Shown here: positions 3,354-51,964 of the stretch, piece by piece
How positions within the stretch are numbered: position 1 is the first letter of the stretch
Layout of the letters: each line of letters begins with the position of its first letter
Made by a program: the position numbers and the translations under genes
Assembly (NCBI RefSeq): GCF_002723955.1
Contig: NZ_BEWN01000002.1
Coordinates: forward strand, 62,001 to 126,000
Direction of reading: 5' to 3'
Length of the DNA: 64,000 bases
Origin: Gluconobacter frateurii
GTDB lineage: Bacteria; Pseudomonadota; Alphaproteobacteria; Acetobacterales; Acetobacteraceae
Notes under the pieces: generated by a model
The model's input: the letters and a program-made list of their open reading frames with translations, nothing else
Told to the model about the DNA's origin: nothing
The model's database searches: none

Positions 3354-4517
3354 TCAGGACAGAGCCTTTTCCAGTCGGCGAAGCGCTTCCTCAAGAATTT
3401 CAGGCTTCTTGCAGAACGCAAAGCGGATCAAATTTTGCGGGGCCGCAGAACCATCAGGATCGTAGAACGCAGAAACTGGAATAGTCGCAACACCAGCATG
3501 CTCAACCAGCCACTTTGCAAACTCCACATCCGTCCGCCCCTGCGCATGTCGCGTAATGTCCGCCACGATGAAGTAACTTCCATCAGCCGGAAGGGTCTCA
3601 AACCCTAAACGATGCAAACCATCCCGCAAAAGGTCCCGGCGCAGTTCCAGGTCGTCTGAAAGGCCCTGATAGTAACTGTCATCCTTATTCAGGCCATGAG
3701 CCACCGCCCGCTGAAGATTGGGCGCCGTGGCAAAAACCATCACCTGATGCGCCTTGGCAATCACAGATGCCAGCGCAGCCGGCGCAGTCACATAGCCGAC
3801 CTTCCACCCTGTCAGAGAGAAGCTCTTTCCCGCACTGCCAATCCTCATGCACCGCTCCCGCATGCCCGGCAGCGTCATCAACGGAATATGTTTCACGTGG
3901 AACGTCAGATGCTCATAGACCTCATCGCAGACCACATAAGCATCATGTTCCCGCACCAAGTCTGCAATCAGGTCCAGCTCTGCCCGCGAAAATACCTTCC
4001 CTGCCGGATTCATCGGTGAATTCAGAATCATCGCTTTGGTCTTCGGACCAAAAGCAGCTCTGAGTTCTTCTTCCGGGAGCTTCCAGTGCGGTGGCTGCAA
4101 ACGCACGCATTTTGGAACAGCCCCGATCAGCTTCAGCATGGGAAGATAGGTGTCATAAAGCGGCTCAATCAGAACCACTTCATCACCAGCTTCCACAACC
4201 GCCATCAGACAGGCCGCAAGCGCTTCAGTTGCACCAGACGTCACGACGACTTCCGTCGCAGGATCGATCTCCAGCCCATAGAAACGCTGGTTGGAAGCCG
4301 CAACCGCGTCACGCAGTTCTGGCAGTCCGGTCAGCGGGGCATACTGGTTCCGGTTATCCTTCAAAGCCTCGGCTGCCACCGCAATGATATCCGCAGGTCC
4401 CTCAGTATCCGGAAACCCCTGCCCCAGATTAATCGCATCATGCTTGACCGCGAGCTGGGACATGACCGTGAACACAGTTGTGGGAAGCGACGAAAGATAA
4501 CGATTGGGCGTTTTCAT
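3354..4517 (-). CDS. PLP-dependent class I/II aminotransferase
   Basis: 387 residues of fold-type I aminotransferase. Visible motifs are GQGFPDTEGP near the N-terminus, the substrate-binding NSPMNPAGKVF, the cofactor region VVCDEVYEHL and the Schiff-base lysine in GSAGKSFSLTGWKVGY, then the conserved Arg in NLIRFAFCKKPE. Overall pattern is closest to the kynurenine/methionine aminotransferase (YbdL-like) and DapC-like group; the amino acid substrate cannot be fixed from sequence. A parS-like 16-mer lies inside the gene. It is the first gene of a probable unit with tldD. Confidence 0.85.
   Translation of the reverse strand: MKTPNRYLSSLPTTVFTVMSQLAVKHDAINLGQGFPDTEGPADIIAVAAEALKDNRNQYAPLTGLPELRDAVAASNQRFYGLEIDPATEVVVTSGATEALAACLMAVVEAGDEVVLIEPLYDTYLPMLKLIGAVPKCVRLQPPHWKLPEEELRAAFGPKTKAMILNSPMNPAGKVFSRAELDLIADLVREHDAYVVCDEVYEHLTFHVKHIPLMTLPGMRERCMRIGSAGKSFSLTGWKVGYVTAPAALASVIAKAHQVMVFATAPNLQRAVAHGLNKDDSYYQGLSDDLELRRDLLRDGLHRLGFETLPADGSYFIVADITRHAQGRTDVEFAKWLVEHAGVATIPVSAFYDPDGSAAPQNLIRFAFCKKPEILEEALRRLEKALS
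3889..3904. promoter_or_regulatory. parS-like ParB binding site (in aminotransferase gene)
   Basis: TGTTTCACGTGGAACG. Read on the other strand it is CGTTCCACGTGAAACA, one base off the Bacillus subtilis consensus and two off the alphaproteobacterial TGTTTCACGTGAAACA. It codes for part of Thr-Phe-His-Val-Lys-His in the aminotransferase. ParB is encoded 49 kb away in this window. Confidence 0.6.
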
Positions 4518-4591
4518 GAACCAGCACTTTGGCAGAAGCAGAAAGGAATTTTTACCATTGCAGGAGGAGCGACGCCTGAAAAGCCACCCCT

Positions 4592-4614
4592 CCCTCAGTA
4601 CGTTGCCTTGAGGG
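4592..4614. other. Hairpin in the leader between aminotransferase and glnA
   Basis: CCCTCA at 4592-4597 and TGAGGG at 4609-4614 form a 6-bp stem with an 11-base loop. It lies 75 bases upstream of the aminotransferase start and is surrounded by GC-rich runs (GGGAGAG, GGAGGGG on the minus strand). It has no T-run. It could be part of a structured leader but fits no riboswitch consensus I know. Confidence 0.3.
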
Positions 4615-4870
4615 CTCTCCCGTAATCACACAGGCAGACGCGTCTTCACCTGAGAAATCCTGAATTTTCCCGATCGGACAACACACGCCAAGGAACATTC
4701 TCTCCATACCTTATATGAGAGAAAGCCATACCTGAGTAGTTGAAACCCCGTTTCCGGACATTTCCTTTCCTCAAAAGATGATAAAATGAAGCGCTGTGTC
4801 GTACTCGACAGATGGGAAATTGTCCCGTAATCGTTTTGAAGCCGTTCACACGATGCAAGGCGACAGATCG

Positions 4871-6403
4871 ATGGCCAGAAAAGCCCCTACTTCCTCCACC
4901 GCCAAACCGAAAGCTGCAGCTCCGCGCCGCGCTTCCGCCAAGGCAGCAACACCAAAGACCAAAGCCGTAGCTGGCAAGCCACCGGCACCAAATCCCGCGG
5001 CCGTAGCCCGCGTGTTCGAAATGATCCAGGAGCACGCGGCTGAATTCGTCGATCTGCGCTTCACCGATCCCAAGGGCAAATGGCACCACACGACCCAGAC
5101 GGTCTCCACCATTGAAGATGATACCTTCGTTGAAGGTTTCATGTTCGACGGTTCGTCCATCCAGGGTTGGAAGGCCATTAACGAGTCCGACATGGTCCTG
5201 CTGCCGGACCCGGAAACGGCCGTCATGGACCCGTTCTCCGCAAAGCCACAGCTCATCCTGTTCTGTGACATCGTCGACCCAAAGACCGGTGGTTTCTACA
5301 ACCGTGACCCGCGCTCGACAGCAAAGCTCGCAGAAGCCTACCTGAAGGAAGCTGGTTTCGGCGACACGGCATTCTTCGGTCCGGAAGCAGAGTTCTTCAT
5401 CTTCGACAACGTGCAGTTCGGCACGGGTCCGAATTTCGGCACGTACCAGCTCGACAGCATCGAAGGCCCAGGCTCTTCGCTGAAGGCTTACCCGGAAGGC
5501 AACATGGGCCATCGCCCTGTCGTCAAGGGTGGCTACTTCCCTGTCCCGCCGGTGGACAGCGAGAACGACCTGCGCGCTGAAATGCTCTCCACGATGGGCG
5601 AAATGGGCCTGCCGATCGAGAAGCACCATCACGAAGTTGCACAGTCCCAGCATGAGCTCGGCACGAAGTTCGCAACGCTCGTGAAGTCCGCTGACTTTAT
5701 GCAGATCTACAAGTACTGCGTGCACAACGTCGCCCACTCCTACGGCAAGACGGCCACCTTCATGCCGAAGCCAATCGCTGGCGACAATGGTTCGGGCATG
5801 CATGTTCACCAGTCTATCTGGAAGGACGGCAAGCCGACCTTCGCTGGTGACAAGTACGCGGACCTGTCTGACGACGCGCTGTACTACATCGGTGGCATCA
5901 TCAAGCACGCGAAGGCCCTGAACGCCTTCACGAACCCATCCACTAACTCCTACAAGCGTCTGATCCCGGGCTTCGAAGCGCCTGTGCTGCTCGCATATTC
6001 CGCAGCCAACCGCTCCGCTTCGTGCCGTATCCCGCATGCGACGAACCCGAAGGCAAAGCGCGTTGAAGTCCGCTTCCCGGACCCGACGGCAAACCCGTAC
6101 CTTGCCTTCGCTGCCATGCTGATGGCTGGCCTGGACGGCATCCGCAACAAGATCCACCCTGGCGACGCCATGGACAAGGATCTGTACGAACTGCCGAAGG
6201 AAGAACTGGCTCAGATCCCGACGGTCTGCGGTTCGCTTCGTGAAGCCCTCGAAGCCCTCAAGGAAGATCACGCGTTCCTTCTCGAAGGCGGCGTCTTCAC
6301 CAAGGACCAGATCGAGAGCTACATCGACATCAAGTGGGCAGAAGTCTACAAGTTCGAACACACGCCGCACCCGGCAGAGTTCGAGATGTACTATTCGGTC
6401 TGA
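4871..6403 (+). CDS. glnA: Glutamine synthetase, type I, with basic N-terminal extension
   Basis: Makes glutamine from glutamate, ammonia and ATP. From the ATG at 4871 it has 510 residues, against about 470 for the family. The core begins near [17 protein letters not shown]; before it lies a tail of some 40 residues almost wholly Ala, Lys, Pro, Thr and Arg (MARKAPTSS...). Core motifs are [41 protein letters not shown] and [19 protein letters not shown]. The adenylylation site KDLYELP places Tyr at about residue 439, so control by GlnE is expected. Other in-frame starts are ATG 4853 and 4796. No glnB gene lies next to it. A strong terminator follows. Confidence 0.95.
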
Positions 6404-6430
6404 TCCGAACAGACATCTGTCAAACAGAAA

Positions 6431-6456
6431 GCCCGGCCATCGCGCCGGGCTTTTTT
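6431..6456 (+). terminator. Rho-independent terminator of glnA
   Basis: GCCCGGC, a short CATCGC loop, then GCCGGGC followed by TTTTTT; 28 bases after the glnA stop. Confidence 0.9.
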
Positions 6457-6486
6457 GTGCGCAGTTTCCCTGCTACGGCATCCCAT

Positions 6487-7116
6487 ATGATGCACCCCGC
6501 CTTCGAGGCTTTCTCAACCTCCATCCTGCCGGTTCTGGATATCGCCGGCACCGCTGTGTTCGCCGTCTCAGGAGCACTGGCGGCCGCGCGTGAACGCCTG
6601 ACGATCCTCACATTCATGTTCTTCGCCGCCATAACAGGCGTCGGAGGCGGAACCGTGCGTGATCTGCTGATCGGCGCCCCGGTCGCATGGATGCACAACT
6701 CCACGGGCATCACCGTCTGCATGGTCTGTGCCCTGCTCGTCTGGTTCACCCCTGGACGCCTCTGGTCAGAACGCGCCGTGGACTGGTTCGATGGAATGGG
6801 AATTGCTGCTTACGGCGTGTACGGTTCCGCCAAAGCCATCGCTTACGGCATCCCCCTCGTTCCGGCAGCCCTTATGGGCATTGTCAGCGCCTGCATGGGT
6901 GGCATCTTCCGGGACGTTCTGGCAGGCGTTCCATCCATTATTATCCGCCCTGAACTCTACGTGACAGCCGTGGCACTCTCATCCTGCAGCTATGTGCTTC
7001 TGACCGCAGCAGGCCTCAGCACAACACTCGCAGCCGCAATCGCCATTACTGCCGGTTTTGCCTTGCGCGCCCTCGCCCTCATCAAAGGGCTTGGACTTCC
7101 TCACTACCGGAAATAA
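6487..7116 (+). CDS. TRIC-type cation channel family membrane protein (YadS/UPF0126)
   Basis: About 209 residues with seven hydrophobic segments arranged as two repeats. Each repeat carries the family glycine motif: GVGGGTVRDLLIG near residue 55 and CMGGIFRDVLAG near residue 140. Prokaryotic TRIC proteins are trimeric potassium-permeable channels; older databases call them UPF0126. Two tandem ATGs (6487 and 6490) are possible starts; the longer open frame upstream is dropped because it runs through the glnA terminator. Confidence 0.85.
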   Translation: MMHPAFEAFSTSILPVLDIAGTAVFAVSGALAAARERLTILTFMFFAAITGVGGGTVRDLLIGAPVAWMHNSTGITVCMVCALLVWFTPGRLWSERAVDWFDGMGIAAYGVYGSAKAIAYGIPLVPAALMGIVSACMGGIFRDVLAGVPSIIIRPELYVTAVALSSCSYVLLTAAGLSTTLAAAIAITAGFALRALALIKGLGLPHYRK

Positions 7117-7146
7117 CCTTCACCCCAGACGGGAAAGACGATCACC

Positions 7147-8139
7147 ATGCGCTTCGTAACCTGCCTGCAAAAGCTCCTGATAGCGCTTCCGTTCTTTCTC
7201 GCTCCGGCATGTAGCAGGGCAGTGGACTTTGACATCGTAGTTCTTGGCGCAGAGGGTGGCCTGGAAGACGGAAACCTGAGCGCCTATTTCATCCGCCCAA
7301 CCACGTCAGACAAAGGTGTCCTCTGCGATGCAGGAACCATACTGCACGGCCTGAAGAAAGCCACCAAAGCCGGCGCTTTTGATAAACGCGCCCTGACATC
7401 AAAGACCTTGTCCCCGGAAGGCGAAATCCTTCACGACAGGATCACCGCCTACCTCGTCAGTCATGCCCATCTGGATCATATCGCTGGCCTCGTGGCTGTC
7501 TCGCCAGATGACGCCCCCAAACCCATTCTGGCGCTTCCTTCCGTCAACGCAGTTCTGGCCGAGCACGTCTTCAACTGGCAGATCTGGCCCAATATGGGCG
7601 ATCGCGGCCCCACACCCCGCCTCGGCCTGTATCATTACCAGGACCTTGAACCCGGAAAAGCCGTTTCCCTGCCGCAGACCCCGCTTCAGGTTCAGGCTTA
7701 TCCCCTCAACCATGGCGGCGTGGAATCAACCGCTTTCCTGCTGACCAGCGGATCAGACGCGCTGCTCTATCTAGGCGATACAGGCCCAGATACCCCCCAG
7801 CACTCGGACAATCTTCATCACCTCTGGCAGGCAATCGCACCACTGGTTCAGCAGAAACGCCTGCATGCCATCCTGATGGAATGCTCCTATGACAACAGCC
7901 AGCCCACCAGCCGCCTCTACGGCCATCTGACACCACACTGGGTCCAGGAAGAACTGGAGGATTTGCAAACGATCGCGGGAACCAGCCTGCAAGGCCTTCC
8001 CGTCATCATCACGCACGTCAAACCAACGCTTAAACATCAGGATGACCCAGTGGGCCATATTTTCGGAGAATTGAACGCCACAAACACGACGGGCGTCCAT
8101 TTCATCATGGCACGTCAGAGCCTGCACCTCAGGCTCTGA
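7147..8139 (+). CDS. cpdP: Class II 3',5'-cyclic-nucleotide phosphodiesterase (CpdP/PDE1-like)
   Basis: 330 residues with a hydrophobic N-terminal signal ending LAPAC, then FDIVVLGAEGGLEDGNLSAYFI and the class II signature YLVSHAHLDHIAGL (residues about 103-115), the metallo-beta-lactamase-type metal site of yeast PDE1 and Vibrio CpdP. Further metal ligands are suggested by LNHGGVESTAFLL, YLGDTGPD and PVIITHVKP. It should hydrolyse cAMP or cGMP, probably in the periplasm given the signal. The Cys after the signal gives only a poor lipobox. It starts 30 bases after the TRIC gene. Confidence 0.82.
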   Translation: MRFVTCLQKLLIALPFFLAPACSRAVDFDIVVLGAEGGLEDGNLSAYFIRPTTSDKGVLCDAGTILHGLKKATKAGAFDKRALTSKTLSPEGEILHDRITAYLVSHAHLDHIAGLVAVSPDDAPKPILALPSVNAVLAEHVFNWQIWPNMGDRGPTPRLGLYHYQDLEPGKAVSLPQTPLQVQAYPLNHGGVESTAFLLTSGSDALLYLGDTGPDTPQHSDNLHHLWQAIAPLVQQKRLHAILMECSYDNSQPTSRLYGHLTPHWVQEELEDLQTIAGTSLQGLPVIITHVKPTLKHQDDPVGHIFGELNATNTTGVHFIMARQSLHLRL

Positions 8140-8156
8140 TGGCCAGGCAGCTTCAA

Positions 8157-8369
8157 TCAGCCAACAACGTCAAAACCAACATCTTCAACGGTGTCCTTCA
8201 GTGCGGAAGGCGAAACCTTTGCCTCGTCATACTGAATGACAGCCTGAGCCGGCTCCAGCGTGACTTCCGCTGCCGACACACCCGGCACAGCCTCAAGCGC
8301 CTTCTGAAGCTTGCCTGAGCACCCCGTGCAGGACATGCCCTCAACCTTGAACGTCACAGATGCAGTCAT
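8157..8369 (-). CDS. Heavy-metal-associated (HMA) domain copper chaperone-like protein
   Basis: Seventy residues forming one HMA domain: VEGMSCTGCSGKLQKALE carries the Cys-x-x-Cys metal site at about residues 13-16, and the fold ends LKDTVEDVGFDVVG. Such proteins carry Cu(I), or sometimes Hg(II), to P-type ATPases. The ATG at 8369 has a strong AAAGGAG site 8 bases away, so the longer frame to 8414 is rejected. No copper ATPase is adjacent. Confidence 0.87.
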   Translation of the reverse strand: MTASVTFKVEGMSCTGCSGKLQKALEAVPGVSAAEVTLEPAQAVIQYDEAKVSPSALKDTVEDVGFDVVG

Positions 8370-8467
8370 GGGTGTCTCTCCTTTATCCCTGTTCCGTCGC
8401 TCCAACAGCGGCACCCCAGAAGAGACACATTCCCATTGGAATTGAAACTGCGGAATTGAAACTGCTT

Positions 8468-8782
8468 TCAGACCCCATCGCTGATTTCATCCAGAGGCTC
8501 CACGCGCATCAGCTGCACCGTAGCATCCAGTCGATCCAGAAGCCCCGCCAGAGCCCGGAAATGCGGCGTTTCAAGATGCTGCTCGAAAGCCTCCGTAGAT
8601 GCCCAGCGTTCCTCCGCCGTAAACCGCCCTGCCGTCTCCATGTCCCGACTGATCACATAACGCTGGCAGCCTGCTTCCTTGCGGGACGCCACCGTACAGC
8701 GCACCAGTTCCAGCTCCAGGTCGCGCGCCCTGTCAGCAGAAACAGTCAGGATAGCGACAACACAGGCAGAATGGCTCATCAT
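8468..8782 (-). CDS. ABM-domain protein (putative quinol monooxygenase family)
   Basis: About 104 residues with the antibiotic-biosynthesis monooxygenase ferredoxin-like fold: VVAILTVSADRARDLELELVRC, GCQRYVISRD, FTAEERWASTEAFEQHLETPHF. Related proteins act on quinols or on heme, but many have unknown substrates. Two ATGs in a row (8782 and 8779); AAGGA lies 4 bases from the first and 7 from the second, so 8779 may be the true start. A second, distinct ABM protein is encoded at 14216. Confidence 0.72.
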   Translation of the reverse strand: MMSHSACVVAILTVSADRARDLELELVRCTVASRKEAGCQRYVISRDMETAGRFTAEERWASTEAFEQHLETPHFRALAGLLDRLDATVQLMRVEPLDEISDGV

Positions 8783-8884
8783 AAAATCCTTCAGGAAACG
8801 GAAAGCGGCACCGCCATGAAACATTCGATCCATGACCCTACCAAAACCCGTTTCTAAAAGATCGGTTTTCAGAAGTCTCGCCCA

Positions 8885-8900
8885 TGTTTCACATGAAACA
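8885..8900. promoter_or_regulatory. parS-like ParB binding site (upstream of ybaK)
   Basis: TGTTTCACATGAAACA, a single mismatch (A for G at the centre) from the consensus TGTTTCACGTGAAACA. It lies in the intergenic space about 30 bases upstream of the YbaK gene. Confidence 0.6.
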
Positions 8901-8929
8901 TCCTTTCCCAGTCGCCGGAACCAGCACTC

Positions 8930-9400
8930 ATGAGCCTTGAAAGCGTCAAAGCAGATCTCGCCACTCGCGCCCCAGATCTCTCCGTCATCGTGACAAGCAG
9001 CTCCACAGCGACCGTCGAAGAGGCCGCCGCCACACATGGCGTCGAACCGGACCAGATCGCCAAAACCCTCGGCGTCAAGGTCGGATCAGGCCCGAACGCC
9101 AGAACCGTTCTCGTCGTGATGGCAGGCACAAAACGCCTGGACAACCGCCTGACGAAAGAAGCGCTCGGCGGTCGTCCCCGCTTCCTCAACGGTGAAGAGG
9201 TTCTGGCCCTGACAAGCCACCCACCGGGCGGCGTCTGCCCGTTCGGGCTCCCCGAGCCTCTCCCTGTGTACTGCGATGACTCCCTGCGCGCTTTCGAACA
9301 GATCATCCCCGCTGGCGGAGCTACCAATGCTTCCGTGGTCCTCACGCCGCAACGCCTGGCAGAACTGACGTCCGCCACATGGGTCAGAGTCAGTATCTGA
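8930..9400 (+). CDS. YbaK/EbsC-type aminoacyl-tRNA deacylase
   Basis: 156 residues of the YbaK/ProX editing fold, which removes wrongly charged amino acids such as Cys or Ala from tRNA(Pro). Conserved segments are EPDQIAKTLGVKV with the essential Lys, VVMAGTKRLDNRL, SHPPGGVCPFGLP and the closing IIPAGGATNASVVLTP. A parS-like site lies just in front, and a two-way terminator separates it from gcvP. Confidence 0.85.
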   Translation: MSLESVKADLATRAPDLSVIVTSSSTATVEEAAATHGVEPDQIAKTLGVKVGSGPNARTVLVVMAGTKRLDNRLTKEALGGRPRFLNGEEVLALTSHPPGGVCPFGLPEPLPVYCDDSLRAFEQIIPAGGATNASVVLTPQRLAELTSATWVRVSI

Positions 9401-9420
9401 TTCTAGCCTTCATCCAACAA

Positions 9421-9447
9421 AAAAGGCGCCCCTCTAGGGCGCCTTTT
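9421..9447. terminator. Bidirectional terminator between ybaK and gcvP
   Basis: AAAAGGCGCCC, CTCTA loop, GGGCGCCTTTT. The A-run and T-run flanking an 11-bp palindrome suit termination from both converging genes. Confidence 0.88.
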
Positions 9448-9466
9448 GCATCAAAACCAGACCAGC

Positions 9467-12304
<2,838 letters not shown>

Positions 12305-12337
12305 GGTATCGTTCTCTGGAAGTCTTGATGGGCAGGG

Positions 12338-12371
12338 AAAGAAAAATGGGCCCGGCAAAAGCCAGACCCAT
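12338..12371 (-). terminator. Terminator-like hairpin between gcvH and gcvP
   Basis: On the minus strand ATGGGTCTGGC, loop TTTT, GCCGGGCCCAT (11 bp with two G-T pairs), followed by TTTTTCTTTC. It begins 9 bases after the gcvH stop and ends about 33 bases before the gcvP GTG. It should cut gcvP transcription relative to gcvTH. Confidence 0.7.
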
Positions 12372-12380
12372 CACAGAATG

Positions 12381-12740
12381 TCAGAGGCTCTTGTACTGCT
12401 CTGCCGTCAGAAGAGACGTCACGTCATTCGGGTTGGAAACCTTCATCTTGAAGATCCAGCCCTCACCTTCCGGGTCATTACCAACCAGCGTCGGTTCATC
12501 AGACAGCTTCGTGTTGAAGCCAGACAACACACCCGCGACCGGAGCATAGATGTCAGACGCCGCCTTGACGGACTCCACAACCGCAGCAGCATCGCCAGCC
12601 GCCACGTCCGTGCCTTCATCCTTGGCTTCCACGAACACCAGTTCGCCCAGCTCTTCAGAAGCATGAGCCGTGATGCCCACAATTGCTTCTTCCCCGTCCA
12701 GACGGATCCATTCATGCGATTTGGTATAGTAAGTCGTCAT
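12381..12740 (-). CDS. gcvH: Glycine cleavage system H protein
   Basis: 119-residue lipoyl carrier that shuttles the aminomethyl group from GcvP to GcvT. Starts TYYTKSHEWIRLDG, and the lipoylated lysine is in VVESVKAASDIYAPV at about residue 59; ends near DPEGEGWIFKMKVSNP. It follows gcvT by 17 bases and is followed by a terminator-like hairpin before gcvP, suggesting more H than P protein is made. Confidence 0.96.
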   Translation of the reverse strand: MTTYYTKSHEWIRLDGEEAIVGITAHASEELGELVFVEAKDEGTDVAAGDAAAVVESVKAASDIYAPVAGVLSGFNTKLSDEPTLVGNDPEGEGWIFKMKVSNPNDVTSLLTAEQYKSL

Positions 12741-12757
12741 CGCTGCTTTTCCTTGGC

Positions 12758-13891: not shown

Positions 13892-13949
13892 GGGGTAGGT
13901 CCGGCCCGGTCAGAACGTGAAGGTGCAGACGCGCCCGGAGTTTCCGGAT

Positions 13950-14518: not shown

Positions 14519-14519
14519 C

Positions 14520-23385: not shown

Positions 23386-23401
23386 CGTTTCACGTGAAAC
23401 A
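23386..23401. promoter_or_regulatory. parS-like ParB binding site (before Gly-rich gene)
   Basis: CGTTTCACGTGAAACA, one base from consensus, in the gap between the DUF721 gene and the Gly-rich gene, both on the minus strand. A looser repeat (GTTTCAGGGCATGAAAC) lies 10 bases away. Confidence 0.7.
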
Positions 23402-23407: not shown

Positions 23408-23935
23408 TCACCGACGGCGACCGCGTCGCGCACCAATATGCCCCCCCAGACGTTGCAACGCGTCCCGAAGTTCATCGTCTTCAATTTCCGGAACATCAAT
23501 CTGAACAGGTCTGGGCCAAGCTGGGCGAGGCCGTTCAAATGCCGTCATATCCTGCACGATTTTCAGACGGAGAATCAGATATTCTCCTCGCAGGCCACAG
23601 GCCGTATTGATTCGTTCAATAATCTGAGGCGCCAGATGCTGAAGCTCCATGGCGACAGGTCCTGAACAGGCCAATGTCAGTGTTCCTGCCGACATACGGC
23701 GCGGCTCTGTCACCTTTGACAGTCGTGGGCCGATAAAATCTTCCCAGTCCATGGAAAGCCGCACCAGAAGCGGCGACTTCTTCCTGAAAGCCGGCTTGGT
23801 AATTCCCGGAACCAGCGCCCCAATCTGCCTGGCACCCCCTCGCTTGGGGGTCCATGCCGGTTTCTGCCCCTGCTGAGGGTCAATTCCACCCGCCCGACCA
23901 CGAAGGTTCTTGTCCGGACCTTGATCCTTCTTCAT
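23408..23935 (-). CDS. DUF721 (DciA-like) protein
   Basis: 175 residues. A basic, disordered N-terminus is followed by LVRLSMDWEDFIGPRLSKVTEPRRMSAGTLTLACSGPVAMELQHLAPQIIERIN, the DUF721 pattern of DciA, the ancestral loader of the replicative helicase DnaB. C-terminus is Arg-rich (GARRGRRR). It is divergent from mutY with 10 bases between start codons, a common alphaproteobacterial pairing. Confidence 0.8.
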   Translation of the reverse strand: MKKDQGPDKNLRGRAGGIDPQQGQKPAWTPKRGGARQIGALVPGITKPAFRKKSPLLVRLSMDWEDFIGPRLSKVTEPRRMSAGTLTLACSGPVAMELQHLAPQIIERINTACGLRGEYLILRLKIVQDMTAFERPRPAWPRPVQIDVPEIEDDELRDALQRLGGHIGARRGRRR

Positions 23936-41860: not shown

Positions 41861-41895
41861 TCTATATCAAAGTCACGTCACCAAGCGCGTGAGGC

Positions 41896-42109: not shown

Positions 42110-43411
42110 ATGCATCTCGCCGAACTCAAGAAAAAATCTCCGGCCGATCTGCTGGCTTATGCAGAGGAACTGGAGATCGAGAACGTCTCGTCCATGCGCA
42201 AGCAGGACATCATGTTTGCTATCCTCAAAACCCTCGCCGAGCGCGATCAGGCCATCTATGGCGAGGGAACGCTGGAAATCCTGCCGGACGGTTTCGGCTT
42301 CCTGCGTAGCCCGGAAGCCAATTATCTTCCCGGCCCGGACGACATCTACATTTCCCCGACGCAGGTCCGCCGTTTCGGTCTGCGCCCCGGTGATACGGTT
42401 GAAGGCCAGATCCGCGCCCCGCGCGATGGCGAGCGTTATTTCGCGCTCCTCAAGGTCAACACCATCAACTTCGAAGACCCGGACGTTGTCCGGACGCGTA
42501 TCAACTTCGATAACCTGACGCCGCTCTACCCTGAGCGTCGCCTGAAGATGGAAGTTGAACAGTCCGAACCTGCTGTTTCCGACACCTCTCCCCGCAGCAA
42601 GGGCAAGAAAGACCAGCGCGACTATACGCCGCGCGTCATCGATCTTGTCACGCCGATCGGCATGGGCCAGCGCGCCCTGATCGTCGCTCCGCCGCGTACG
42701 GGTAAAACCGTGATGCTCCAGAGCATCGCAGCCTCTATTTCCGCAAACCATCCGGAAGTCTTCCTGATCGTTCTTCTGATCGACGAACGCCCGGAAGAAG
42801 TGACGGACATGGCCCGTTCGGTGCGCGGTGAAGTCGTTTCCTCCACCTTCGATGAACCGGCAACACGCCATGTGCAGGTGACGGAAATGGTTCTCGAAAA
42901 GGCGAAGCGCCTCGTCGAACACAAGCGTGACGTCGTGATCCTTCTGGATTCCATCACCCGTCTGGCTCGTGCCTACAACACCGTTGTGCCGTCATCCGGC
43001 AAGGTGCTGACCGGCGGTGTGGACGCTAACGCCCTGCAGCGTCCAAAGCGCTTCTTCGGTGCAGCCCGTAACATCGAAGAAGGTGGCTCGCTCACCATCA
43101 TCGCCACCGCGCTGATCGATACCGGTTCGCGTATGGACGAAGTGATTTTCGAAGAGTTCAAGGGCACCGGTAACGCCGAACTCATCCTGGATCGCAAGCT
43201 GGCTGACAAGCGTACCTTCCCTGCTATCGACATCACCAAGTCGGGCACGCGTAAGGAAGAACTTCTTGTTGACCGCGCCGAGCTGTCCAAGATGTGGGTT
43301 CTGCGTCGTATCCTCGCGCCGATGGGCACGATGGATGCCATGGACTTCCTGCTGGACAAACTGAAGTACAGCAAATCCAACCACGACTTCTTTGAAGCCA
43401 TGAATAATTAA
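42110..43411 (+). CDS. rho: Transcription termination factor Rho
   Basis: 433 residues, hexameric RNA helicase. N-terminal [20 protein letters not shown], the cold-shock-like RNA domain ([32 protein letters not shown]), Walker [15 protein letters not shown], Walker B region [17 protein letters not shown], and the Q and R loops [16 protein letters not shown]. Normal length. In many alphaproteobacteria rho directly precedes mnmE; here ogt and adhA-adhB separate them. Confidence 0.97.
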
Positions 43412-43430
43412 TCGTATTCTGGTTCATGCA

Positions 43431-43464
43431 ATAAAAAAGGGGAGCTTCCGCTCCCCTTTTTTAT
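43431..43464. terminator. Bidirectional terminator between rho and ogt
   Basis: ATAAAAAAGGGGAGC, loop TTCC, GCTCCCCTTTTTTAT; a 15-bp perfect inverted repeat with A and T runs, serving both converging genes. Confidence 0.93.
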
Positions 43465-43472
43465 TGCCGTTT

Positions 43473-43958
43473 TCAGTCACCTTTTTCGAGATCAAGAAGG
43501 ATTTTCTTGTCTTCAACACCATTCAACCCGGAATAGCTACCTAGCCCGGTTGCCCCTACGACACGATGACAAGGGATGAGAACCGGAATTGGATTGGCCC
43601 CCATAGCCCCACCGATAGACCGTGCCGAGCCACCGGCCTGAGCAGCGATCTCAGCGTAGGTCCGGGTTTCTCCATAGGGGATTTCCAGAATGGCTTTCCA
43701 GATTTTCTGGCGGTAAGGCGTTCCATAAGGCAAGAACGGAAGCTCGCTGAAATCGACCCTTTCCCCGTCAAAATACTTCTCGAGCAGGTCTCGGACTTTT
43801 ATCAACAGGGGCGTCTCTTCCTGATCGCGCCCCCATCCCCAATCGAGAGCAACAATATGCCCGTCATCTTCACTGATGGTCAGGGCTCCGAGGGGGGAAT
43901 GACAGGAAAGCTGTGGCATACAGAGACGCTGCCCCATCCGTCGGAAAGCGTCAATCAT
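43473..43958 (-). CDS. ogt: Methylated-DNA--protein-cysteine methyltransferase
   Basis: 161 residues; repairs O6-methylguanine by suicide methyl transfer. Catalytic PIPVLIPCHRVVG supplies the Cys-His pair; the helix-turn-helix is TRTYAEIAAQAGGSARSIGGAMGANP. No Ada N-terminal domain. The start may instead be the internal ATG at 43919 (PQLSCHSPLG). Lies between rho and adhA. Confidence 0.9.
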   Translation of the reverse strand: MIDAFRRMGQRLCMPQLSCHSPLGALTISEDDGHIVALDWGWGRDQEETPLLIKVRDLLEKYFDGERVDFSELPFLPYGTPYRQKIWKAILEIPYGETRTYAEIAAQAGGSARSIGGAMGANPIPVLIPCHRVVGATGLGSYSGLNGVEDKKILLDLEKGD

Positions 43959-44383
43959 GCTTCCCTAAAAGAGTCCCCCAGAAAAAAGCGTATGCGTGTC
44001 ACGCATATGCCGGGAGGCCGGTATTCTCAAATAACATATGGGATCATTTTTGTATGATTTCCTGAAATATTACGCAATTTGTTGAGAAACTGCCATTTTC
44101 TGTGTCAAAACTGCGACAGAGAATAAAGCTGTTTGATTGTTAGTTATTAAGAACAATTCTCATCTAGTTAAGTCAGCGATTTTACGAGCATAATGCTCAC
44201 GGAAACGTCAGAGGCTCAGTTTTCTACAAACAATAAAATAAGGAGTAGTAAGTTCTCGTGATGCTGGTTTTCCAGACGACTTGAGAAACTGAGGGCACCT
44301 TGGACCCAAGAGGCGCTTATCAGGACTTGATTAGTCTGAATACCAGTAACAGGAACAGTCTTTGCAAAAAGGACAGTCGGATC
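43959..44383. other. Promoter and leader region of adhA
   Basis: 425 bases without a credible gene. It is AT-rich near 44090-44160, contains a 13-base palindrome GAGCATAATGCTC (44186-44198), and an AAGGAG (44243) followed by a short frame of about nine codons. A TTG at 44300 opens the adhA frame early but would bury the signal peptide. No promoter could be named with confidence. Confidence 0.45.
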
Positions 44384-46648
44384 ATGGTTTCTGGTCTACT
44401 GACGCCGATCAACATTACGAAGAAGCGCCTTCTGGGCTGCGCTGCCGCTCTGGCATTCTGCGCCGCCTCTCCTGTCGCCCTAGCCGAGGACACAGGGACC
44501 GCCATTACAAATGCCGACCAACATCCCGGTGACTGGATGAGCTATGGCCGGACCTATTCAGAGCAGCGCTACAGCCCGCTGGACCAGATCACCAAGGAAA
44601 ATGCCGGCAATCTGAAGCTGGCATGGCACTATGATCTGGATACCAATCGTGGGCAGGAAGGCACACCGCTGATCGTTGATGGCGTCATGTACGCCACCAC
44701 CAACTGGAGCAAGATGAAAGCTCTGGATGCGGCAACGGGCAAACTGCTGTGGTCCTATGACCCAAAGGTTCCGGGCAACATTGCTGACCGTGGCTGCTGC
44801 GACACGGTCAGCCGTGGCGCCGCCTACTGGAACGGCAAGGTCTATTTCGGCACGTTTGACGGTCGTCTGATCGCCCTGGATGCCAAAACCGGCAAGCTGG
44901 TCTGGAGCGTCTACACCATCCCGAAGGAAGCTCAGCTGGGCCACCAGCGCTCCTATACCGTGGATGGCGCCCCCCGTATTGCCAAGGGCAAGGTCCTGAT
45001 CGGCAACGGTGGTGCAGAGTTCGGTGCTCGTGGCTTCGTGTCCGCCTTTGATGCTGAGACCGGCAAGCTGGACTGGCGCTTCTTTACGGTGCCGAACCCC
45101 GACAACAAGCCCGATGGAGCCGCTTCGGACGACATTCTGATGTCCAAGGCTTATCCGACCTGGGGCAAGAACGGTGCCTGGAAACAGCAGGGCGGCGGTG
45201 GAACCGTCTGGGATTCTCTCGTTTATGACCCTGTAACGGACCTCGTCTATCTGGCAGTCGGTAACGGTTCGCCATGGAACTACAAGTTCCGCTCTGAAGG
45301 AAAGGGTAACAACCTCTTCCTCGGCAGCATCGTGGCTATCAACCCTGATACCGGCAAATACGTCTGGCATTTCCAGGAAACGCCAATGGACCAGTGGGAT
45401 TATACCTCAGTCCAGCAGATCATGGCGCTCGACATGCCGATCAATGGCGAAATGCGCCATGTGCTCGTTCATGCACCAAAGAACGGCTTCTTCTACATCA
45501 TTGATGCCAAGAGCGGTAAGTTCATCACCGGCAAGCCCTATACCTACGAAAACTGGGCCACTGGTCTGGATCCGGTAACGGGCCGTCCAAACTATGTGCC
45601 TGATGCACTTTGGACTCTGACGGGTAAGCCATGGGTCGGTATTCCGGGTGAACTGGGTGGGCATAACTTTGCCGCCATGGCCTACAGCCCGAAGACGAAG
45701 CTGGTTTACATCCCCGCTCAGCAGATTCCACTCATGTATGACGGCCAGAAAGGCGGCTTCAAGGCATATCACGATGCCTGGAACCTTGGTCTCGACATGA
45801 ACAAGATCGGCCTTTTCGACGACAACGATCCCGCGCATGTCGCCGCAAAGAAGGACTTCCTGAAAGTTCTCAAAGGTTGGACAGTTGCCTGGGATCCGGA
45901 AAAGATGGAACCCGTCTTTACGATCAACCATAAGGGCCCGTGGAACGGCGGTATTCTGGCCACAGCTGGCAACGTAATCTTCCAGGGCCTCGCAAACGGC
46001 GAATTCCATGCCTACGATGCCACGAACGGGAATGACCTCTATTCCTTCCCGGCTCAGAGCGCCATCATCGCCCCTCCGGTGACATACATGGCCCACGGCA
46101 AGCAGTATGTTGCTGTGGAAGTGGGTTGGGGCGGTATCTATCCATTCCTGTATGGCGGGGTAGCCCGCACCTCCGGATGGACAGTCAATCATTCCCGCGT
46201 GATTGCCTTCTCGCTTGACGGCAAGGACAGCCTACCACCGAAGAACGAGCTGGGCTTCACGCCTGTCAAACCGGTTCCGACCTATGACGAAGCCCGTCAG
46301 AAGAACGGATACTTCCTGTATCAGACCTTCTGCTCAGCCTGCCATGGCGACAATGCGATCTCGGGTGGTGTGCTGCCTGATCTCCGCTGGTCTGGTGCCC
46401 CACGTGGCAAGGAAAGCTTCTACAAGCTTGTCGGTCGCGGTGCTTTGACGGCCTACGGCATGGACCGTTTCGACACTTCCATGACGCCTGACCAGATCGA
46501 GGACATCCGCAACTTCATCGTGAAGCGTGCCAACGAGTCCTACGATGATGAAGTGAAGGCTCGTCAGAATTCAACAGGCGTTCCGGGCGATCAGTTCCTC
46601 AATGTCCCGCAGTCCACGGCCGATATTCCGACCGCGGATCACCCCTGA
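44384..46648 (+). CDS. adhA: PQQ-dependent alcohol dehydrogenase, subunit I (quinohaemoprotein)
   Basis: 754 residues. Oxidises ethanol to acetaldehyde at the periplasmic face. Signal peptide VTKKRLL-like (ITKKRLLGCAAALAFCAAS...ALAED), eight-bladed PQQ propeller with the vicinal disulfide DRGCCDTVSRG and tryptophan-docking repeats such as GTFDGRLIALDAKTGKLVWSV, and a C-terminal cytochrome c domain with CSACHGD at about residue 650. Matches Gluconobacter oxydans AdhA closely from memory. Electrons pass to adhB and then ubiquinone. ATG 44384 is chosen over the TTG at 44300. Confidence 0.97.
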   Translation: MVSGLLTPINITKKRLLGCAAALAFCAASPVALAEDTGTAITNADQHPGDWMSYGRTYSEQRYSPLDQITKENAGNLKLAWHYDLDTNRGQEGTPLIVDGVMYATTNWSKMKALDAATGKLLWSYDPKVPGNIADRGCCDTVSRGAAYWNGKVYFGTFDGRLIALDAKTGKLVWSVYTIPKEAQLGHQRSYTVDGAPRIAKGKVLIGNGGAEFGARGFVSAFDAETGKLDWRFFTVPNPDNKPDGAASDDILMSKAYPTWGKNGAWKQQGGGGTVWDSLVYDPVTDLVYLAVGNGSPWNYKFRSEGKGNNLFLGSIVAINPDTGKYVWHFQETPMDQWDYTSVQQIMALDMPINGEMRHVLVHAPKNGFFYIIDAKSGKFITGKPYTYENWATGLDPVTGRPNYVPDALWTLTGKPWVGIPGELGGHNFAAMAYSPKTKLVYIPAQQIPLMYDGQKGGFKAYHDAWNLGLDMNKIGLFDDNDPAHVAAKKDFLKVLKGWTVAWDPEKMEPVFTINHKGPWNGGILATAGNVIFQGLANGEFHAYDATNGNDLYSFPAQSAIIAPPVTYMAHGKQYVAVEVGWGGIYPFLYGGVARTSGWTVNHSRVIAFSLDGKDSLPPKNELGFTPVKPVPTYDEARQKNGYFLYQTFCSACHGDNAISGGVLPDLRWSGAPRGKESFYKLVGRGALTAYGMDRFDTSMTPDQIEDIRNFIVKRANESYDDEVKARQNSTGVPGDQFLNVPQSTADIPTADHP

Positions 46649-46678
46649 GGCAGCGGTACGTATCAAGGAGCACGTGAC

Positions 46679-48115
46679 ATGCTGAACGCATTAACTCGGG
46701 ACAGACTGGTATCTGAGATGAAACAGGGATGGAAACTCGCGGCCGCAATTGGCCTAATGGCAGTGTCTTTTGGCGCTGCCCATGCCCAGGACGCTGACGA
46801 CGCTCTGATCAAGCGCGGAGCTTACGTGGCCCGTCTGTCTGACTGCGTAGCCTGCCATACAGCGCTACATGGTCAGCCTTTTGCTGGCGGTCTGGAGATC
46901 AAGAGCCCGATCGGCACGATCTACTCCACCAACATCACGCCAGACCCGAAATACGGGATTGGCAGCTACACGCTTGAAGATTTCACGAAGGCGATCCGCA
47001 AGGGTATCCGTAAGGACGGCGCGACGGTTTATCCGGCCATGCCGTATCCTGAGTTTGCCCGTCTGTCTGATGACGACATCAAGGCCATGTACGCCTTCTT
47101 CATGCATGGCGTGAAGCCAGTCGCCCTTCAGAACAAGCAGCCGGACATCTCCTGGCCGATGAACATGCGCTGGCCGCTGGCCATCTGGCGCGCCATGTTT
47201 GTTCCAACCGTTACACCTGGTCTCGACAAGAGCATTTCCGATCCGGAAGTGGCCCGTGGTGAATACCTCGTGAACGGCCCAGGCCATTGTGGCGAATGTC
47301 ATACGCCTCGTGGCATGGCCATGCAGGTCAAGGGTTATACGGCCAAGGACGGCAATGCTTACCTCTCCGGTGGGGCACCAATCGACAACTGGATTGCTCC
47401 AAGCCTGCGCAGCAACAGTGACACAGGTCTGGGTCGCTGGTCGGAAGATGACATTGCCGAATTCCTGAAGAGCGGCCGTATCGACCATTCTGCCGTCTTC
47501 GGTGGTATGGCTGACGTGGTGGCCTACAGCACACAGCATTGGAGCGACGACGACCTGCACGCAACAGCCAAGTACCTGAAGAGCATGCCGGTCGTTCCGG
47601 AAGGCAAGAACTTTGGTCAGGATGACGGCAAGGCCACAGCCCTGCTCGAGGCTGGCGGCAAGGGCGACGCGGGTGCAGAAGTTTACCTGCACAACTGCGC
47701 CATCTGCCATATGAACGATGGTACCGGTGTCAACCGTATGTTCCCGCCTCTGGCTGGCAACCCTGTTGTCATTACCGACAATGCAACTTCGATGGCCAAC
47801 ATCGTGACCTTTGGCGGCATTCTGCCTCCAACGAACACGGCCCCATCTGCTGTTGCCATGCCGGGCTTCCGCGATCACCTGTCTGACCAGCAGATCGCAG
47901 ATGCCGTCAACTTCATGCGTAAGAGCTGGGGCAACCAGGCTCCGGGCACACTGTCTGCAGCAGACATCCGCAAGCTCCGCACAACGGGCGCTCCGGTTTC
48001 CACAGCAGGCTGGAACGTCTCTTCCAAGGGTTGGATGGCGTACATGCCGCAGCCTTATGGCGAAGGTTGGACCTTCTCCCCGCAGACCCATACAGGTGTG
48101 GACGAAGCTCAATAA
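46679..48115 (+). CDS. adhB: Alcohol dehydrogenase cytochrome c subunit II
   Basis: 478 residues. Signal peptide after a polar start (MKQGWKLAAAIGLMAVSF...AHAQD), then three heme sites: CVACH near residue 56, CGECH near 204 and CAICH near 340. Passes electrons from AdhA to ubiquinone; the C-terminus ends with the amphipathic membrane-docking part. Almost identical to G. oxydans AdhB as remembered. Starts 30 bases after adhA. The third subunit (adhS) is not here, as in G. oxydans where it lies elsewhere. Confidence 0.97.
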   Translation: MLNALTRDRLVSEMKQGWKLAAAIGLMAVSFGAAHAQDADDALIKRGAYVARLSDCVACHTALHGQPFAGGLEIKSPIGTIYSTNITPDPKYGIGSYTLEDFTKAIRKGIRKDGATVYPAMPYPEFARLSDDDIKAMYAFFMHGVKPVALQNKQPDISWPMNMRWPLAIWRAMFVPTVTPGLDKSISDPEVARGEYLVNGPGHCGECHTPRGMAMQVKGYTAKDGNAYLSGGAPIDNWIAPSLRSNSDTGLGRWSEDDIAEFLKSGRIDHSAVFGGMADVVAYSTQHWSDDDLHATAKYLKSMPVVPEGKNFGQDDGKATALLEAGGKGDAGAEVYLHNCAICHMNDGTGVNRMFPPLAGNPVVITDNATSMANIVTFGGILPPTNTAPSAVAMPGFRDHLSDQQIADAVNFMRKSWGNQAPGTLSAADIRKLRTTGAPVSTAGWNVSSKGWMAYMPQPYGEGWTFSPQTHTGVDEAQ

Positions 48116-48144
48116 GCTTCTCTTAACCGTATCAGTCTGAACAG

Positions 48145-48180
48145 AAACGGGCGGCTCGGTAACGGGTCGCCCGTTTTCTT
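48145..48180 (+). terminator. Terminator of adhA-adhB
   Basis: AAACGGGCG and CGCCCGTTT with a 14-base loop, followed by TTCTTTT, 30 bases after the adhB stop. Confidence 0.8.
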
Positions 48181-48230
48181 TTATGCACAGGCCAATTTCA
48201 CATCACAGCATCCTGCATTACATAAGGGGC

Positions 48231-49526
48231 ATGAGCCCCTTTTCTTCTTCAACGTCCCAGGTCATTTTTGCTGTGGCTACAGGTGCCGGCCGCGCGGCTA
48301 TTGCCATTATGCGCGCCAGCGGACCAGGAAGCGCGAATGTTCTCCAAAGCCTCTGTGGCTCCCTGCCAGAACCTCGACGCGCCAGTCTGCGCAATCTTCG
48401 CCATCAGGGCGAGGTGCTTGATCATGCCGTAGTTCTCTGGCTGCCCGGTCCAAAGTCCTATACGGGGGAAGACGGGTTTGAACTCCACCTTCACGCCGGA
48501 CCAGCCGTTATTGCGCGCGTTGCGGATGCGCTGACTGATCTGGGCGCACGTCCTGCGGAACCGGGAGAGTTTACAAAACGCGCCGTGCAGAAAGGTCGTC
48601 TGGATCTTCTACAAGCTGAAGCCATTGCCGATCTGGTCGATTCCGAGACGGAAAGCCAGCGCAAACAGGCGCTTCAACAGGCAGACGGCGCACTCAGCCG
48701 GCTATATGATGGTTGGGCACAACGGCTGCGGCTTGTGCTTGCCCACCAGGAAGCGCTGATTGATTTCCCGGATGAAGACCTTCCGCCCGAAGTTGAAGAG
48801 ACTCTTCTGGCTGAAATGTCTGCCTTGCATCGCGAAATGTCCGCTCACTTGCAGGACAATCGCGGCGAGCTGATGCGACAGGGTCTGACAGTCGTCATCG
48901 CGGGATCTCCGAATGTCGGAAAATCAAGCCTTCTCAATGCCTTATCTGGTTATGATGCAGCAATCGTCACGCATCGCGCAGGAACAACGCGAGACGCCAT
49001 TGCCGTTGACTGGGTTTTGAATGGTGTCCGCCTTCGCCTGATCGACACAGCCGGCCTTCGTGAGACAGAGGATGAAATCGAGGCCGAAGGCATTCGCCGG
49101 GCCTTGTTTCACGTGAAACAGGCAGACGTCATCCTGCATCTGATTGGGCCAGACGAAACTGCGGACGCCCTGTCTGACAATGAAATTGCGGTTCGTACGA
49201 AAATCGACATCGCATCTGCCCCGCCGAACATGCTAGGCATCAGCACCCAGACAGGTGACGGGTTGTCGGCACTTCGGTCCGTACTGACTGAACGTGTATC
49301 GGCGCTGACCGCTAGTGCCGGTGCACCGCCTCTGACCCGGGCACGCCATCGTGCAGGTATTCAGGAAGCCGTCACTCATCTGGACCGCGCCCAGACTGCC
49401 ACATGGCCTGAACTGCGCGGCGAGGAGCTTCGCTTGTCCATGCAGGCTCTGGGGCGTCTGACAGGACGTGTTGATGTTGAATCCCTGCTCGATGCAATCT
49501 TCGGGCAGTTCTGTATCGGGAAGTAG
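48231..49526 (+). CDS. mnmE: tRNA modification GTPase MnmE
   Basis: 431 residues; with MnmG modifies uridine 34 in tRNAs. N-terminal folate-binding domain ([20 protein letters not shown]), helical domain, inserted G domain with P-loop [15 protein letters not shown] and [17 protein letters not shown], and the C-terminal FCIGK with the catalytic Cys. The internal sequence TGTTTCACGTGAAACA is a consensus parS site. ATG 48231 follows AAGGGGC; the longer frame is rejected. Confidence 0.95.
49105..49120. promoter_or_regulatory. parS consensus site inside mnmE
   Basis: TGTTTCACGTGAAACA, a perfect 16-base palindrome equal to the alphaproteobacterial parS consensus. It codes for Phe-His-Val-Lys-Gln in the MnmE G domain. 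parB starts 3.6 kb away. Confidence 0.85.
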
Positions 49527-49529
49527 GTT

Positions 49530-51386
49530 TTGAGCGATTTCGATGTCATCGTGATCGGCGGCGGTCATGCCGGGTGCGAAGCAGCCGCAGCATCTGCGCG
49601 CTTTGGAGCCAGAACGCTCCTGCTGACACACAAGCTCGAAACCATCGGGGCCATGTCCTGCAATCCTGCCATTGGTGGAATCGGCAAAGGGCATCTTGTG
49701 CGAGAGATCGACGCACTGGATGGACTGATGGGCAAGGCTGCCGATCGGGCAGGCATCCATTTCAAGCTGCTCAATCGCTCCAAAGGACCAGCCGTTCACG
49801 GTCCCCGAGCACAGGCTGACCGCTCTCTTTACAAAACGGCTATTCAGACCCTTCTGGCAGAAACGCCTAACCTCACGATCATGGCTGGAGCGGTTGGGGA
49901 TCTGATTGAAGAAAACGGACAAATCTGCGGTGTCGTCTGCGAAGATGGTCGTTCTTTCCGTTGCGGTGCCGTAGTCCTCACGACAGGTACCTTCCTGCGC
50001 GGCGTGATTCATGTCGGGCATGAGCAGCAACTTGCCGGGCGCATCGGCGAAGCCCCAGCAACGAAACTGGGCGAACGTCTGGAGGCCCTCAACCTACGAA
50101 TGGGGCGCCTCAAGACCGGTACACCACCCCGCATTGCCAAAGACAGCATCGACTGGGACAACCTGCCAGAAGACCGCGGTGATGATATTCCGGAGCCTTT
50201 CAGCCCGCTGACGGATCGCATCACGAACGATCAGGTTTCTTGCCGCATCAGCCAGACGACGCCAGAAACACATCGTATCATCAACGAGAACCTGCATCGT
50301 TCCGCCATGTATGGCGGAGCAATCGCAGGGCGTGGCCCACGCTATTGCCCCTCAATTGAAGACAAGGTGGTCCGTTTCGCAGAGCGGTCGTCCCATCAGG
50401 TTTTTCTGGAGCCGGAAGCACTTCCCGGAAATCCCGGCGGGGACCTTGTCTATCCGAACGGAATCAGCACCAGCCTTCCGGCTGATGTTCAGGCACTCAT
50501 GATCGCCTCCATGCCTGGCCTGGAAAAGGCCCGGATCGTGACGGCAGGATATGCTGTAGAATACGACTACGTTGATCCCCGTGAACTTCTACCATCGCTT
50601 CAGTTGCGCAGCCTGCCGGGCCTCTATCTGGCGGGTCAGATCAACGGCACAACAGGTTATGAAGAAGCAGGCGCGCAGGGTCTCCTTGCGGGCCTGAATG
50701 CCGCCCGCGCGACGGCTGGAAACGATCCGCTCATTCTGGATCGGAGCGATGCTTATCTGGGCGTCATGATCGACGATCTGACGCTGCACGGCATCAGCGA
50801 ACCTTATCGCATGTTCACGTCGCGCGCCGAGTATCGTCTGATACTACGCGCCGATAACGCAGACCTGCGCCTGACACCCAAGGGCATGATGGCCGGGTGC
50901 GTGTTGGCCGAGCGTGCCAGTGCTTTTACAGACATGAAGACCCAGATTGATGCGGCCATGGCTCAGGCTGCTTCGACGACATTCCTGCCCCAGACACTCA
51001 GAGAAGTCGGATTTGAGGTCTCCTTGGACGGGCGGCGGCGGAGCGTTCTGGACGTGCTGGCCAGCAATGGCGATCATTCAAAGGTGCTGGATCTGGCGCC
51101 CTGGTTCGCAGAGTTACCGCTTCGCATCCGCCGTCATGTGGAAACGGAAGCACGCTATGGCGGCTATCTGCACAGGCAGGACCGTGAGATCAAACAGCTT
51201 GCCTCTGAAAGTGCCATCGCACTGCCGGACAATCTGAACTACAACGCCATTGGCGGCCTGAGCAGCGAAATGCGCGAGCGTTTTACTCAGGCCCGTCCGA
51301 CCAGCTTTGCCGCAGCGCAGCGTGTGCGAGGCGTAACACCCGCCGCGCTGGTCGCCCTGCTGGCCCATGTAAGGACCCTGTCATGA
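49530..51386 (+). CDS. mnmG: tRNA uridine 5-carboxymethylaminomethyl modification enzyme MnmG
   Basis: 618 residues, FAD enzyme partner of MnmE. FAD fold [21 protein letters not shown], then [26 protein letters not shown] and the C-terminal helical domain. Start is TTG 49530, 3 bases after the mnmE stop. Overlaps rsmG by ATGA. Normal length. Confidence 0.95.
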
Positions 51387-51964
51387 CCACCGTTTCACGT
51401 GAAACGCAGGCCAGACTGGAGCGCTTCGCAGACCTGCTCGTGCAGTGGAATGCGAAGATCAATCTGGTCAGCCCGAAAGATCTGGGTCAACTCTGGCCCC
51501 GCCATATTCAAGACAGCCTGCAACTCGCGGATCTGATCCCTGAGGGTGCCACCATTACGGACCTCGGTTCAGGCGGCGGCTTTCCGGGTCTCATTCTGGC
51601 AATCGCAACAGGCAACCCGGTTACACTCATTGAGTCAGACCAACGAAAATGCGCCTTCCTGCGAGAAGCCGGGCGCATCTGCGAAGCCAATGTCACCATC
51701 CTTCCCAAGCGGATTGAAGCGGCAACCCCACCAGAAGCCGACATCATTACCGCCCGCGCACTGGCCCCGCTGGTCAAACTGCTGGGATGGGCGCGCCCTC
51801 TGCTGAAAGAAAACGGATTTTGTCTGTTTCTCAAGGGCATAAAGGCGCAGGATGAGTTGACCGAGGCAAGCCGCGACTGGCACATGACATCCACCATTCT
51901 TCCCAGCCGCACCGACCCCGGCGGAGCCATCATCAAGGTCAGTGATTTCAAGCGTGTCGTCTAA
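51383..51964 (+). CDS. rsmG: 16S rRNA (guanine-N7) methyltransferase RsmG
   Basis: 193 residues; methylates G527 of 16S rRNA. The SAM motif is [18 protein letters not shown], preceded by [12 protein letters not shown] and followed by [16 protein letters not shown]. Begins [11 protein letters not shown], the usual N-terminal start. A parS-like site lies in codons 4-9. Overlaps mnmG by ATGA and its end overlaps the parA start. Confidence 0.93.
51391..51406. promoter_or_regulatory. parS-like site at the start of rsmG
   Basis: CGTTTCACGTGAAACG, a perfect 16-base palindrome with the outer base changed from the T/A consensus. Codes for Val-Ser-Arg-Glu-Thr in RsmG. This placement just upstream of parAB is found in many bacteria. 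Confidence 0.8.

Follow-up and report, generated by a model that had tools for sequence, protein, structure and literature searches.

Loading of ParB at parS, its sliding, the movement by ParA and the recruitment of SMC are all established for other bacterial ParABS systems (reviewed in PMC7333895). In Caulobacter crescentus, as described in PMC5815017, the left arm carries the parS sites, about 8 kb away from the origin and in genes that are either essential or whose loss is costly, and the five strongest fall within 5 kb; ParB covers ~10 kb natively, and from a single parS placed in Escherichia coli it spreads over at most ~2 kb. Here we describe a set of parS-like 16-mers and the neighbouring parAB genes in a 64,000-nucleotide stretch of Gluconobacter frateurii DNA (hereafter the window; contig NZ_BEWN01000002.1, positions 62,001–126,000, or C2:62001-126000 in our numbering), which belongs to a 10-contig, 3.31-Mb genome (G000). 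With a probability of about 0.94, the five 16-mers of the window and a sixth outside it serve a standard Gluconobacter ParABS system as its chromosomal parS sites.

The locus resembles that of C. crescentus in that a ParABS system goes with multiple 16-bp parS sites on a single chromosome arm close to the origin, within genes, and differs in its extent, with six sites over 71 kb, 22–93 kb from the likely origin, as opposed to five within 5 kb at ~8 kb. Since one-sided and intragenic parS sites are already known from Caulobacter, it is the width that differs here, and 71 kb is well inside the ~500-kb zone around the native cluster in which Caulobacter is described as tolerating an extra parS cluster (PMC5815017). 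Bacillus subtilis offers a similar case, the four strongest of its Spo0J/parS sites being ~5, 13 and 39 kb apart near the origin (same source); unlike B. subtilis, which has Noc with sites of its own, the Gluconobacter genome yielded no second HTH_ParB protein. The arrangement described here, near the likely origin and common to close relatives, is that of an ordinary ParABS centromere, confined to one arm and somewhat wide. We found no paper on Gluconobacter parS or on parS with rsmG; the main survey (Livny, 2007) may already list Gluconobacter.

Number, confinement and placement of the sites

A 16-mer was counted as a parS site when it differed from TGTTTCACGTGAAACA at no more than two positions, and the reversed pattern served as a control. 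Even with three mismatches allowed, the window holds only five matches, where 0.21 were expected, and five were reached in 0 of 100 shuffles. These are the five near-palindromes that an initial annotation had picked out by eye and considered improbable by chance; all five are at the positions it gave (Table 1), and all stand on one side of parB, as it had said, namely the mnmE side, which is also one side of the likely origin. It had allowed that others might have been missed; the one further site of the genome (C2:42748) lies 19 kb left of the window and was thus out of its view.

The genome-wide scan at two mismatches that the same annotation had proposed returned six sites, all on C2 between 42,748 and 113,406 (starts at 42748, 65889, 70885, 85386, 111105 and 113391; span 71 kb), and thus no even scatter around the genome. 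The control pattern gave four matches at up to three mismatches and none at up to two. Matches with exactly three mismatches were dropped as candidates, the eight of them being scattered across contigs C1, C2 and C3, as against the four control matches. The six retained sites are more frequent than chance and near-palindromic close to TGTTTCACGTGAAACA, as chromosomal parS sites should be; the widest gaps between neighbours reach 26 kb.

Two sites of the window are placed in intergenic gaps and three inside the aminotransferase gene, mnmE and rsmG, in agreement with the initial annotation, and the sixth lies inside a glycosyltransferase gene (gene calls and Pfam). The site at 8885 falls within the longest frame of an ABM-domain open reading frame (8468-9037, minus strand), ahead of the conserved domain (residues 91-162; Pfam), and is probably intergenic, beside that gene, because the aligned frame of relative L102 has a stop at this position. 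The four coding sites are translated in two ways only, as FHVKQ or FHVKH (mnmE, aminotransferase) and as VSRET or VSREA (rsmG, glycosyltransferase). The DciA domain of the gene beside the site at 23386 is that of a replicative helicase loader family.

Partition proteins and the likely origin

The parA and parB genes adjoin, and ParB combines an N-terminal CTPase fold, a helix-turn-helix (HTH) and a dimerisation domain, the composition that defines a ParABS system. This ParB shares 98% identity with the Gluconobacter thailandicus protein, which places its source in Gluconobacter; it is the sole HTH_ParB protein found in the genome, and carries at residue 95 a GERR motif that we take to serve CTP binding. 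Its solved relatives in the PDB include the chromosome-partitioning ParB 6t1f (the nearest chain, by annotation), which we assume to be Caulobacter ParB, together with Spo0J and Noc proteins. On the 6t1f numbering, all nine residue letters that we checked agree with the residue numbers of PMC7383237, and the four specificity positions (equivalents of 173, 179, 184 and 201) are occupied in the window protein by R167, T173, N178 and G195. R173 and G201 are described as absolutely conserved among ParB orthologs, and a selection screen in the same study left position 179 an almost free choice and 184 free (PMC7383237). Because R and G are kept at the invariant positions, and 179 and 184 are largely free, the window ParB should read parS. 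No Noc-type paralogue, which would carry Q173 and R201, was encountered, the single HTH_ParB protein found in the genome having R and G. The SMC protein is encoded as a single 1509-residue frame on C1 that holds both SMC_N halves. The attribution of the sites to the neighbouring parAB, as first annotated, is well supported by their confinement within the genome, their conservation in the genus and the specificity residues of the only HTH_ParB protein.

Cumulative GC skew along C2:1-226000 reaches its minimum at C2:135272, where maf (C2:134693-135304) and hemE (from C2:135659) diverge, and third-position skew flips sign at the same place for genes on both strands. The gap between the two genes (C2:135305-135658, or ~73305-73658 in window numbering, past the right end; L049:9305-9658) contains DnaA-box-like repeats. 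The distance between the skew minimum and the hemE start is under 0.4 kb in this genome, 0.3 kb in G014 (a 200-kb stretch) and 1.8 kb in G021 (180 kb); maf adjoins hemE in G014, and G021 gave no maf match near hemE or anywhere else in the 180 kb read. In each of the three genomes, two TTGTACACA boxes 70–71 bp apart precede hemE. The origin of Caulobacter lies near hemE. The predicted origin is thus most likely the maf–hemE gap, 9 kb right of the window; dnaA was of no use as a marker, the gene being on contig C4. Measured leftward from this gap, the six sites are ~93, 69, 64, 50, 24 and 22 kb away and parAB ~20 kb, so that 6/6 sites are confined to within 93 kb of the predicted origin. Within the window, GC skew is about −0.15 left of 31 kb and clearly weaker, about −0.05, at 31000-64000, where third-position skew is also roughly halved.

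Two further groups of genes were read from translation only: between rho and mnmE (44384-48115), two genes resemble a PQQ-type alcohol dehydrogenase and its cytochrome c subunit, and to the right of parAB (56934-60441) four resemble the dTDP-rhamnose pathway (rmlB, rmlA, rmlC and rmlD).

Table 1. Candidate parS sites and associated genes in the window (window numbering).
Feature	Positions	Strand	Context or evidence
parS site TGTTTCACGTGGAACG	3889..3904	.	Inside aminotransferase gene (3354-4517, minus; Pfam); peptide TFHVKH
parS site TGTTTCACATGAAACA	8885..8900	.	Between gcvP (9467-12304, minus) and ABM-domain gene (minus); probably intergenic
parS site CGTTTCACGTGAAACA	23386..23401	.	Intergenic, 6 bp from end of DciA-domain gene (23408-23935, minus)
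mnmE (trmE)	48231..49526	+	Pfam MnmE_helical, TrmE_N, MMR_HSR1
parS site TGTTTCACGTGAAACA, perfect palindrome	49105..49120	.	Inside mnmE; peptide LFHVKQ
mnmG (gidA)	49530..51386	+	Pfam GIDA
rsmG (gidB)	51383..51964	+	Pfam GidB
parS site CGTTTCACGTGAAACG	51391..51406	.	Start of rsmG; peptide TVSRET
parA	51942..52754	+	Pfam AAA_31, CbiA
parB	52761..53639	+	Pfam ParB_N, HTH_ParB, ParB_C; R173 and G201 equivalents present; PDB relatives

Conservation in Gluconobacter and the family

All 26 Gluconobacter genomes (G000 included) have four to nine sites at up to two mismatches, with reversed controls at 0 or 1, and every one of them has a pair 2286–2289 bp apart, corresponding to the mnmE/rsmG pair; the mnmE member was assumed to be the exact copy, as verified by tblastn in G014 and G021 and checked in G003 and in the named loci. 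These named loci around parB number 29 (18 titled Gluconobacter, 10 of the Bombella group and one from a Methylococcaceae) and overlap with the genomes, the two sets not being independent. The mnmE site is exact in 18/18 loci titled Gluconobacter, and the rsmG core GTTTCACGTGAAAC is intact in the same 18/18. In the Bombella group the mnmE site is gone from 10/10 loci and the rsmG site is kept as TGTTTCACATGAAAC plus A or T. Both sites are missing from the single Methylococcaceae locus.

The four outer sites were compared through 20 stretches from five relatives, and stand at the same genes as in G000 in 18 of them, the misses being L099 (G014) and L100 (G025). A blastn alignment runs through the site in 13 stretches and fails in L086, L094, L098, L099, L100, L102 and L103; where the flanks can be aligned they are only 66–92% identical. 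The 3889 site is written in the same codons in all five relatives tested. The 23386 site is between or beside the same genes in all five, the DciA-domain gene among them, and is intact amid diverged flanks. The 8885 site is beside the same genes in four of the five (base-by-base alignment in one only), the exception being G014, where the nearest fetched site is elsewhere.

For the mnmE site, the constraint on coding that the initial annotation had proposed is supported by codon use. The F-H-V-K codons are invariant in 19 Gluconobacter sequences, and among the other invariant residues of mnmE a single codon is used by 0/8 histidines, 3/11 valines, 2/5 phenylalanines and 2/5 lysines; in the Bombella group, which is without the DNA site, the residues at this position vary too. 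The same comparison is weaker for V-S-R-E of rsmG (single codon at 3/4, 3/6, 1/9 and 3/6), where constraint is only suggested. Silent codons were not retained as a hallmark of the sites, the mnmE site being one of few such stretches and not alone; some silent windows coincide with the end of a gene that overlaps or adjoins its neighbour.

The position of the sites relative to hemE could be followed in 23 of the 26 genomes, G011, G018 and G023 being excluded with hemE on another contig. By hand count, 111 of the 114 placeable sites are on the mnmE side of hemE, in a test that is partial since 29 further sites of these 23 genomes are on other contigs and cannot be placed, and several contigs are short. 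The three exceptions are one site in G006, with an altered core, and two in G014. In G003, G019 and G021 the mnmE–parB segment is reversed relative to hemE, 61–82 kb away, and the sites of the contig are nevertheless all on the same side; in G025 it is hemE itself that points in the opposite direction. One-sidedness is not a rule of the family and was rejected as such: in other genera, taking hemE as the origin marker there as well, sites (up to two mismatches) occur on both sides in at least six genomes (G054, G057, G071, G080, G094 and G103; the far-side site has two mismatches in G057 and G103). It is a feature of the lineage, and shared descent explains most of it. In the 1.9-Mb genome G054, whose five sites at up to two mismatches (contig C1) flank hemE on either side, every site matches TGTTCCACGTGGAACA or is a single step removed from it.

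Across the family, one or more sites at up to two mismatches are present in 92 of 100 genomes, a set that includes G000 and G003. The median count is six in the 26 Gluconobacter genomes versus two in 98 other genera, four of which have six or more; the genomes are not independent and some are incomplete, so that only the medians are compared. Matches to mnmG were obtained in 94 genomes, and the loci of the best 30 were read by hand (not strand-oriented, so that signs differ). In 28 of these 30, all except G071 and G090, a site is present within 170 bp of the mnmG end, and 15 have one ~0.4 kb before mnmG, which is the mnmE position. Eight of these 30 loci (G026, G029, G038, G056, G077, G091, G104 and G113; MnmG 62–64% identical to that of the window) share with Gluconobacter a parS at the mnmG/rsmG junction, but have two there, in tandem 36–49 bp apart, and none at the mnmE position. 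The junction site (51391) is likely the oldest in the family, to judge from this distribution, and the probable order of gain is the junction first, mnmE next and the outer sites in the Gluconobacter line.

A separate pattern was seen in the Acetobacteraceae genus of G044, where a variant palindrome, TGCTTCACGTGAAGCA, occurs in pairs and in one set of four with 42-bp spacing, just past mnmG (L123:771-912, from G044:C330) and on other contigs (also L124, L125 and L126); one partner copy in each of L125 and L126 has one mismatch. It is possible that this array is a phased variant of parS.

Weighing the readings

Several observations count against reading all six sites as a working parS array beside the maf–hemE origin. 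The 14-base core is altered in three of the six (3889, 8885 and C2:42748), and these may be weak. Four-codon windows as silent as those of the sites number 12/172 in mnmE and 8/60 in rsmG, the site windows included. For the origin, a loose box pattern, picked after the gap had been read, gives the maf–hemE gap the highest box density of any 400 bp in G000 and in G014 but only a tie with another place in G021, and a strict scan for DnaA boxes (TTATCCACA, at most one mismatch, 226 kb) gave 48 matches with no three within 600 bp. The altered cores bear most directly on the alternative that only the mnmE and rsmG sites work as the centromere, the four outer ones being weak or decaying relics hardly used by ParB: all three altered sites are outer ones, the 20-kb Bombella-group loci show only the rsmG site near parB, and a single parS is described as often sufficient (PMC7333895). 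We nonetheless consider it unlikely, since parS 16-mers are retained at the same genes in 18/20 stretches despite flanks that, where alignable, are only 66–92% identical, 7/20 not aligning through the site, and since the intergenic site is conspicuous between flanks that have diverged.

That the palindromes serve a different DNA-binding protein, Noc-like or a regulator, would fit their occurrence in or beside varied genes, but is very improbable given that they have the parS consensus and are confined to the par/origin region, that only one HTH_ParB protein turned up in the genome, and that the two contact positions of ParB itself are occupied by R and G instead of Q and R. As for chance palindromes and coincidences of codon use, the four coding sites do draw on just two peptides, FHVK(Q/H) and VSRE(T/A), and some proteins might contain these in any case; the shuffles, however, never reached five in the window, no site at up to two mismatches lies outside the 71-kb block in 3.3 Mb, and 26/26 genus genomes have at least four. 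The genome-wide scan makes this explanation untenable, and its probability is negligible.

If the six sites are parS, as we favour, ParB would load at each of them, clamp and slide on the surrounding DNA, ParA would move the ParB complexes apart once the origin region has been replicated, and ParB would probably also load SMC at the sites, all this in an extended cluster that lies 22–93 kb from the likely origin in the maf–hemE gap, on one side of it. The junction site would be the oldest, and the others later additions near it. The wide ParB loading domain suggested by the initial annotation is not borne out, the gaps of up to 26 kb standing against the spread of at most ~2 kb described for Caulobacter ParB in E. 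coli (PMC5815017); because of these gaps and this limited spread, separate islands of ParB nucleation would be at least as likely as one wide domain.

A further, tentative proposal, in our estimate rather unlikely, is that the centromere was widened in Gluconobacter, from one or two junction sites to about six over 60–80 kb, and held to one arm despite inversion (G003, G019 and G021). If true, this would point to selection for parS on one arm, for example through one-sided SMC loading or the sparing of the other fork, and the DNA sites would fix both codons and residues in their host genes. How parS arrays grow and cluster is named as an open question in the review (PMC7333895) and in the Caulobacter study (PMC5815017). 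The Acetobacteraceae offer a graded series for the study of such growth, from the tandem pair through mnmE plus rsmG to the six-site array. In Gluconobacter, comparison allows the sites of a chromosomal centromere to be put in order, and the case is a clean one, useful for comparative work on how parS arrays grow.

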